Part shown: one piece after another, positions 2,691 through 58,820 of the stretch
Position numbering within the stretch: the stretch's first letter is position 1
Layout of the letters: the number at the start of each line of letters is the position of its first letter
DNA from: Pseudooceanicola sediminis
GTDB lineage: Bacteria > Pseudomonadota > Alphaproteobacteria > Rhodobacterales > Rhodobacteraceae
Assembly (NCBI RefSeq): GCF_003575965.1
Contig: NZ_QWJJ01000003.1
Coordinates: 248,001-312,000 of the forward strand
DNA length: 64,000 bases
Reading direction: 5' to 3'
The notes under the pieces: model-generated
Seen by the model: only the letters and a program-made list of their open reading frames with translations
Told to the model about the DNA's origin: nothing
Database searches by the model: none
Made by a program: the position numbers and the translations under genes

Positions 2691-2735
2691 TCCGGCAGGG
2701 GATCATGCCGGTGACGGGGGTGCCGAAATTGCACC

Positions 2736-2770
2736 GCCCGGATACCGTCAAGATACCGACGCTGGCACCG
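2736..2770 (-). repeat. Phased heptamer array, copy A (tolB-pal gap)
   Basis: On the minus strand four units begin at 2770 (CGGTGCC), 2758 (CGGTATC), 2747 (CGGTATC) and 2736 (CGGTGC), spaced 12, 11 and 11 bases. The spacing is identical to the array at 21429-21469, and by eye about 40 of 45 bases agree between the two. No reading frame with a start and ribosome site uses it. Function unknown. Confidence 0.85.
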
Positions 2771-2849
2771 ACACTGATTTCGGCGGGGGATTCCGCCCTC
2801 GCCGAACAAATGCTAAGATGATCGAAACATTTCAAACGAGGCGTATCAT

Positions 2850-21375: not shown

Positions 21376-21428
21376 GAGGTCTCGGTGCCGGGCGTCTGCG
21401 ATCAGCGGTTTGGCGCTGAAAGCAACGT

Positions 21429-21470
21429 CGGTGCCTACGTCGGTATCTTGGCGGTATCCGAGCGGTGCGA
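21429..21470 (+). repeat. Phased heptamer array, copy B (dprA-tldD gap)
   Basis: Units start at 21429 (CGGTGCC), 21441 (CGGTATC), 21452 (CGGTATC) and 21463 (CGGTGCG), spacing 12, 11 and 11 bases. It lies between the dprA promoter region and the tldD terminator. Matches copy A over about 45 bases. Confidence 0.87.
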
Positions 21471-56412: not shown

Positions 56413-56451
56413 GGCGCGCGCTGCGTTAACCCCGGTGTCAGCCGCGCTCGT

Positions 56452-56491
56452 CGCACCGCTCGGATACCGCTCGGACACCGTCCAGATACCG
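56452..56491 (-). repeat. Phased heptamer array, copy C (maa-phosphoesterase gap)
   Basis: On the minus strand units begin at 56491 (CGGTATC), 56480 (CGGTGTC), 56469 (CGGTATC) and 56458 (CGGTGCG), all 11 bases apart. It has one more CGGTATC-type unit than copies A and B before the final CGGTGC unit. Confidence 0.85.
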
Positions 56492-56672
56492 ACGTTGCAG
56501 ATTCGCAGGATTTGCCTTGTTAATATGGGTATAGGGTATCTTGACCGGCTTCGGCGCACCGCGCCGTGTCGGTGCACCTGTCCGCCCCGTTAGCCGATTG
56601 GCAAGGCCTCTGTCCCGGACCACTCAGGCTGGCATTACGGCGCGTCCCGCAGCGCCGATGCACGGGCTTCAT

Positions 56673-58576: not shown

Positions 58577-58780
58577 CTTTGTCTCCGGTCCCTTGACCCA
58601 CGCCCGGTGTCGGTGCCGGGCTGCACTGGGGGATCAACGCGCGAGGTCGCAGATTTGTTGCGCCTTGAACGCTGCGTTGTCGGGCCGGTCGCGCGCCGCG
58701 GGGCGGGGCAGGCGGCAGATCGCTGTCGGTATTCCGCCAGCAGGAGTGCGCAAGCCTTTGATAACATGAGATTCCCACGT

Positions 58781-58820
58781 CGGTATCCTGACGGTATCAG
58801 AACGGTAGCCGAACGGTGCG
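58781..58820 (+). repeat. Phased heptamer array, copy D (lipid kinase-dehydrogenase gap)
   Basis: Units start at 58781 (CGGTATC), 58792 (CGGTATC), 58803 (CGGTAGC) and 58814 (CGGTGCG), all 11 bases apart. Same terminal CGGTGC unit as in the other three copies. It ends 20 bases from the dehydrogenase stop. Confidence 0.85.

Follow-up and report, generated by a model that had tools for sequence, protein, structure and literature searches.

In MatP/matS, SlmA/SBS and Noc/NBS, one small DNA-binding protein is paired with tens to hundreds of dispersed chromosomal sites, and the matS, SBS and NBS sites are palindromes. Direct repeats are recognised in other systems: PhoB sites consist of a heptamer and a 4-bp spacer, and the LexA site reads GAAC-N7-GAAC. 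In RHH proteins, alternate residues of the N-terminal strand determine specificity. The BrnA-BrnT complex of the BrnT/BrnA type II toxin-antitoxin system binds its own promoter (PMC5086665); ParR of plasmid R1 is an RHH protein that occupies 11-bp direct repeats, which differ between relatives (PMC9426499); the STAR elements of staphylococci are interspersed intergenic direct repeats with lineage-specific conservation (PMC3532100); and CenR of Rhodobacter sphaeroides is associated with TGA-N8-TGA in the promoters of 31 transcription units, upstream of the -35 element, with tol genes among its targets (PMC9275681).

The locus analysed here is a stretch of 64 kb (the window) from a Pseudooceanicola genome (G000; 4.44 Mb in 54 contigs) that carries arrays of a heptamer phased at 11 bp, for which a solitary BrnA-type protein is the candidate binder. 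The system resembles BrnT/BrnA in the BrnA domain (PF14384) and in the operator-like array upstream of the gene, but differs from it in the lack of a toxin among the recurrent neighbours, in the 11-bp phase of the operator and in the presence of dozens to more than 100 dispersed sites. With ParR/parC (ParMRC) it shares the 11-bp direct repeats, which here too may be bound by an RHH protein, whereas ParMRC serves plasmid partition with a ParM filament and the present sites are many and chromosomal. Unlike the sites of MatP, SlmA and Noc, each array is a run of 3-6 direct repeats whose first and last units are defined, and the candidate belongs to another protein family; unlike STAR elements, they have a proposed binder, a unit sequence that co-varies with it and an 11-bp phase. 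The direct repeat of CenR, likewise alphaproteobacterial, has the same 11-bp distance from start to start, but its sequence and place are different. In the open-licence PMC text available, no description of these arrays or of a solitary BrnA-type protein with arrays was recognised, which is weak evidence of novelty; the parts are known separately (RHH proteins on direct repeats, promoter binding by BrnA-BrnT, intergenic repeats) and nothing was seen that joins them as here.

All four CGGTATC arrays that a sequence-only reading had located in the window were recovered at the same positions and on the same strands, all in gaps between genes, with steps of 12, 11 and 11 bp between the units of arrays 1 and 2, steps of 11, 11 and 11 bp in arrays 3 and 4, and CGGTGCRA as the terminal sequence of each, as it had described (Table 1). 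The pair CGGTATC-N3..6-CGGTATC occurs three times in the window against a mean of 0.00 in 100 dinucleotide shuffles, and triples of CGGT occur six times at a spacing of 11 and 0-1 times at each of the spacings 8-10 and 12-14. Boxes accompany some of the arrays: GTTAA has 10 listed occurrences in the 64 kb, counting both strands, and boxes of the GTTAACGC type were also seen after other arrays and between an array and the BrnA-type gene.

Table 1. Arrays and accompanying boxes of the window, in window coordinates, with the Pfam assignments of flanking genes and the state of the corresponding place in the nearest relative (G218).
Feature	Position	Strand	Unit starts	Layout or role	Setting and flanking Pfam domains	Nearest relative
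Array 1	2731..2774	-	2770, 2758, 2747, 2736	GTGT-CGGTGCCAGCGT-CGGTATCTTGA-CGGTATCCGGG-CGGTGC; subtype with 12-bp first step	tolB-pal gap, antisense to both; TolB / OmpA-domain (pal)	array in same gap, same strand
Array 2	21425..21468	+	21429, 21441, 21452, 21463	ACGT-CGGTGCCTACGT-CGGTATCTTGG-CGGTATCCGAG-CGGTGC	dprA-tldD gap, antisense to both genes; DprA / PmbA-TldD	
GTTAACGC box	56423..56430	-		22 bp beyond array 3; type B element (GTTAAY - array - GTTAACGC)		
Array 3	56453..56495	-	56491, 56480, 56469, 56458	ACGT-CGGTATCTGGA-CGGTGTCCGAG-CGGTATCCGAG-CGGTGC	convergent gap; hexapeptide acetyltransferase / metallophosphoesterase	orthologous array
ATTAAC box	56519..56524	-		upstream of array 3		
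CAAGCCTTTGATAA box	58751..58764	+		upstream of array 4; type A element		
Array 4	58777..58819	+	58781, 58792, 58803, 58814	ACGT-CGGTATCCTGA-CGGTATCAGAA-CGGTAGCCGAA-CGGTGC	3' of GcvT/DAO gene, antisense; diacylglycerol-kinase domain / GcvT-DAO	orthologous array

As a copy number, four proved a large underestimate, since the exact pair CGGTATCNNNRCGGTRTC occurs 133 times in G000 and its reversed pattern does not occur there at all. The same pair was counted 0-2 times in each of the other 197 sampled family genomes; within the genus, it is present 48 times in G218, once in each of two genomes and never in the other 19. A sequence-only model built from 41 elements and run on the genus genomes matched at least 150 sites in G000, 127 in G218, 51 in G202 (P. 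atlanticus), 43 in G215 and 11 in G201, and had no match in 18 other genomes of the genus. Across 394 family genomes, CGTCGGTATNNYGTCGGTAT was found in 23, each of a different genus, with up to 129 copies per genome, and the reversed pattern in none of the 394, resulting in a patchy distribution; confinement to two genomes, considered at one stage, was wrong, the pattern behind it having been fitted to the derived spacers of G000. The copies are neither few nor spread at random through coding sequence (two arrays lie inside genes called by a crude gene caller), and they were not found to be a known transposon relic devoid of the 11-base phase. Some occurrences stand apart: one element is present in three head-to-tail copies with 80-bp spacing near a contig end (G000, C27:18136-18324); at each end of contig C2 of G000 (L043 and L044) an identical upstream stretch and element read inward, which is probably a repeated sequence at which the assembly broke; and a 30-kb contig filed as viral (IMGVR_UViG_3300037791_000022) holds one array of three exact units and may be host DNA. 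A BLAST search of plasmid and phage collections with a 43-base query gave no match, although the low-complexity filter may hide such a tandem query.

The element begins with ACGT, which is followed by 3-6 units (CGGTATC and 4 further bases each), and in most cases it closes with CGGTGC; among the longest arrays seen are one of 5 units on contig 20 of G000 (L155) and one of 6 units in G215 (L240). Upstream subtypes are marked by a AAGYCNTTGAAAT box, by a GTTAAY box or by first units reading CGGTGCC, CGGTTTC or CGGTATT, and one element type has GTTAACGC 20-30 bp downstream of the array. In the other genomes of the genus and family, the unit is mostly (A/G)CGTCGGTAT(C/T), and GT precedes every unit in the arrays of six other genomes (33/33 second units, 33/33 third units). 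In the sampled arrays of G218, GT is kept before units 1-2 and mostly lost before units 3-4 (unit 2: 20/22; unit 3: 2/22), and in those of G000 it is kept before unit 1 alone (69/70; unit 2: 2/70); these losses, at units 3-4 and 2-4 respectively, are also seen at orthologous places. Nine gaps matched by BLAST and the tolB-pal gap hold an element on the same strand in G000 and G218, and array 4 adds another. Over 10 orthologous pairs of arrays, CGGT is identical at 156/156 bases and the next three bases at 72/87, against 56/116 in the spacers and 318/800 in the flanks. The 27 kb of G218 that match the window from 44 to 64 kb contain both arrays of that part and no extra one by pattern; in G215, arrays 1 and 4 are absent from the corresponding gaps.

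The candidate binder emerged from a comparison of the genes that flank arrays in different genera, in which the same small protein came up in G000 (L025) and in G290 (L279). In G000 it is encoded outside the window, on contig C6 (L025:1795-2181), and has 128 aa; it matches BrnA_antitoxin with 44.5 bits against a cut-off of 26.1, and all 15 aligned members match the same family at E<=0.01 (best 1.1e-13). In G202 (P. atlanticus 22II-s11g) the gene lies at C12:439315-439605. The members have a conserved N-terminal TKTERIARERL stretch and a variable C-terminus. A profile search for PDB relatives yielded none (best E 0.99, to ribosomal proteins), and no NCBIfam family scored above its cut-off for five members. 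Among the neighbours common to at least three of 29 loci (about 1.5 kb on each side), neither a toxin gene nor ParM was present; those that recur, named by eye, are a cold-shock protein (14), an ABC ATPase (4), an ArsR-like protein (3) and a thioesterase-like protein (3). The cold-shock gene near the BrnA-type gene in 14/29 loci (among L025 and L304-L349) encodes 68 aa, by eye, and lies on varying sides. At one canonical-looking BrnA match (L323), a 98-aa ORF that overlaps its start reads, by eye, like BrnT.

The protein and the arrays occur together. With one query protein and 50 chosen genomes, a strong homologue (E<=9e-20) was found in 15/20 array-positive and 0/30 array-negative genomes (Fisher 7e-9); array-positive G363 gave a partial match at 6e-13, and the best array-negative genome reached 8e-12. 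A profile of 15 members run over 394 genomes scored at least 97 bits in 16/23 array-positive and 12/371 pattern-negative family genomes (5e-16), 12 of the 16 array-positive matches being rows of the profile itself and four (G347, G349, G356, G363) not; at 1e-5 the profile matches 126/394 genomes, some of these matches being ordinary BrnA. Seven of the 23 array-positive family genomes have no strong homologue: G055, a complete genome in a single contig with 9 pairs, G176 with 8, G308 with 4, and G072, G080, G158 and G287 with 1 pair each, of which G287 has a weak match with an internal stop. Likewise, the single-query search found no homologue in G201, with its 11 model matches. In array genomes of this kind the protein may have been lost recently or a homologue overlooked, and where there is a single match it could be due to chance.

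Upstream of the gene itself, a same-strand array phased at 11 bp lies about 70-160 bp away in 15/15 strong homologues, usually followed by TTAAC; it is degenerate in G231, G387 and G263, and in G000 some 250 bp separate its end from the start codon. A motif-free test, which took the best three-copy repeat in the 280 bp upstream of the gene (score at least 5 of 7, lags 7-18), returned lag 11 in 27/29 strong members, with 0-2 for each other lag, and in 34/45 weaker members, with 0-3 for each other lag. The two strong members without lag 11 are G307 and G000, the latter missed because its array lies mostly beyond the 280 bp. Moreover, 10 of the 12 pattern-negative genomes that have the protein carry another 11-bp repeat upstream of its gene, namely RTCGGAC in G171, G168 and G064, mixed TCGGRC in G035, CGTCGGCA in G142 and G315, CATATGA in G362, CGTATGGC in G116, CGTACAC in G094 and GT(C/A)GGAG in G066. 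Of the remaining two, G307 lacks a clear repeat and G184 has a strong match that appears cut short (L350, C1:2659742-2660005), just downstream, by eye, of a transposase-like frame. The mixed TCGGRC operator is also found in G349, which is array-positive with 3 matches.

Four further operator motifs (CATATGA, RTCGGAC, ATGCACA and CGGCTG) were searched as dispersed arrays, and for all four the operator predicted the arrays. CATATGA-N4-CATATGA occurs 40 times in G362, 8 times in G184, where a second homologue has CATATGA upstream, and never in 18 others, the reversed control giving 1 in G349. RTCGGAC-N4-RTCGGAC occurs 40 times in G171, 32 in G168 and 68 in G064, the 17 others having 7, 4, 4, 3, 1 and, in 12 genomes, 0; exact RTCGGAC pairs are scarce where the operator is of the mixed TCGGRC kind (G035 3, G349 4). 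For the weaker members of G253 and G398, the motif was set from the operator before 200 kb of either genome were read: ATGCACA gave 4 arrays and 6 pairs in G253 (reversed 0), CGGCTG gave 7 arrays and 10 pairs in G398 (reversed 1), and the swapped motifs gave 0 in the two samples. In the 394 genomes, CATATG-N5-CATATG reaches at least 5 sites in G362 (39), G197 (30), G019 (23), G184 (9), G013 (6) and G371 (6), and has 1-2 sites in 26 genomes, as the reversed pattern likewise has in some. The protein is present in four of the six CATATG-rich genomes; G019 (L409) and G371 (L398) have no BrnA-type homologue at 1e-5. G197 encodes two homologues with different operators, TACAGA and a CATATGA-like one (L428, L430), alongside its CATATG pairs.

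Variation in the protein appears to track variation in the operator. In an alignment of 74 members, with 62 operators whose class labels were set by hand, residue 58, in the strand KVTLYLD, is K in 35/39 GG operators and R in 21/23 others and is the column that best distinguishes these two operator classes (p=9e-12, the runner-up having 1e-5), also with machine-set labels (p=3e-9; next column 8e-5). Residue 62 is Y in 17/17 CGGTAT members and 0/46 others, and L in 4/4 CATATG members from two parts of the tree, although L also goes with TCGGAC. Well-supported independent pairs number four for residue 58 (about 3.6 agree, 0 disagree) and one for residue 62, neither being significant by sign tests on the supported branches of the poorly resolved tree. 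Residue 58 lies in the strand predicted to contact DNA and tracks the operator best of all columns, with few well-supported independent switches. Small residues at position 62 were dropped as a rule for TGCAC operators (7/11, with R in 4).

The genomic place of the arrays bears on what they may do. Gaps of at least 80 bp were classified with crude codon-model gene calls, and arrays are rarer in divergent (promoter) gaps than in convergent (p=0.013) or tandem gaps (p=0.024), a comparison that is relative only because the sampled loci were chosen for holding arrays. Specifically, 22/36 convergent, 37/68 tandem and 5/20 divergent gaps hold an array, and 14, 31 and 15, respectively, do not. In the tandem gaps, orientation is even (20 opposite, 17 same), and arrays often lie just beyond intrinsic terminators, by eye. 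In other genera, some arrays occupy short gaps directly before a start codon and may have a regulatory part there. A few gaps hold an array in different genera, namely beside gltD, at branched-chain amino-acid transporter genes and at a chorismate-mutase-like gene with an acetyltransferase gene (names by eye), from which it can be said only that some array positions are old. A KOPS-like strand polarity along the G218 chromosome was sought by eye in the listed part of the positions, and no trend was seen. Location argues against promoters, and conservation argues for a use.

In the alternative that fares best, the same protein is a conventional global transcription factor and each array regulates the flanking genes. 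It draws on the TTAAC box that follows the array upstream of the gene itself, as it might at an operator (by eye), on arrays that in several genera separate a gene from the start of its neighbour, and on the few gaps shared between genera; the scarcity of arrays in divergent gaps, their frequency in convergent ones, the unbiased orientation in tandem gaps and the position past terminators speak against it, and it is judged unlikely. A selfish dispersed repeat of the REP, BOX or STAR-like kind, which spreads by itself with the protein as a by-stander or mobiliser, is improbable: it would explain the high copy number, the intergenic location, the subtypes with shared flanks, the patchy distribution, the locus with three head-to-tail copies and the array-positive genomes without a strong homologue, but neither the retention of orthologous positions in G000 and G218, where CGGT is conserved and the spacers vary freely, nor the switching of the unit sequence together with the protein. 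No covarying structure supports it either: a palindrome or stem-loop (REP/BIME, MITE-like) was sought in 41 aligned elements, and of the 9 pairs predicted there none shows a change on both sides. A role in RNA (terminator, Rho-use site or leader) would suit arrays that sit where genes end or in the short gaps that separate co-directional genes, but it is very improbable given that arrays stand in both orientations relative to transcription; Rfam has no match in the window, and the lack of two-sided changes counts against this reading as well. Least credible of all is binding by LexA or by a response regulator of the OmpR/PhoB type (CenR, CtrA), whose sites are also 11-bp direct repeats and, in the OmpR family, share the layout of heptamer plus 4-bp spacer, because CenR sites are promoter-located and of other sequence, the invariant part of the arrays being CGGT(A)T rather than TGA and mostly outside divergent gaps, because GAAC-N7-GAAC is found in 1/108 array pairs, and because the co-occurrence and operator evidence favours the BrnA-type protein.

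The probable explanation is that a solitary BrnA-type protein, presumably of the RHH fold, has the arrays as its cognate sites and acts as a nucleoid-structuring or insulating factor. The parts of this explanation carry different weight: that the binder is the BrnA-type protein is very likely on the genomic evidence, and a structuring role at the dispersed sites is tentative, just short of an even bet. The earlier suggestion of a cooperative protein-binding array with one unit per helical turn gains support from the genome-wide count, from conservation of the core and not of the spacers, and from co-occurrence and co-variation with one protein family; of the label iteron-like, the direct-repeat nature of each unit stands, and nothing points to a replication origin. 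Mechanistically, each 11-bp unit would take one protein dimer, and dimers so placed would form a head-to-tail row over 3-6 units, all on one face of the helix. A polarised oligomer starting at unit 1 is suggested by the defined first (ACGT) and last (CGGTGC) units and by the absence of GT at the far end, from which it was lost. The array upstream of the gene itself would be an operator for autoregulation. At the other arrays, about 150 of them, the protein may structure the nucleoid or insulate rather than regulate promoters, a role favoured over promoter regulation since the sampled arrays are found at the 3' ends of genes and in the gaps between them, and rarely in divergent ones.

On this explanation, in which the arrays are sites of the BrnA-type protein, an anonymous intergenic repeat becomes a testable protein-DNA system with a candidate partner. 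A broader picture is possible, although the balance is somewhat against it: toxin-less BrnA-type proteins may assemble into short, polarised filaments at dozens to more than 100 arrays per genome, structuring or insulating the chromosome at gene ends, with protein and arrays repeatedly switching their 11-bp code together, in up to a third of the sampled Rhodobacteraceae genera. The family offers a natural series of protein-operator pairs (CGGTAT, CGGAC, CATATGA, ATGCACA, CGTATGG, CCGGCTG and others) from which a recognition code could be read, and it raises the evolutionary question of how at least 100 sites shift their sequence in step with their binder. More generally, it suggests that orphan antitoxin-fold proteins can turn into chromosome-wide DNA binders.
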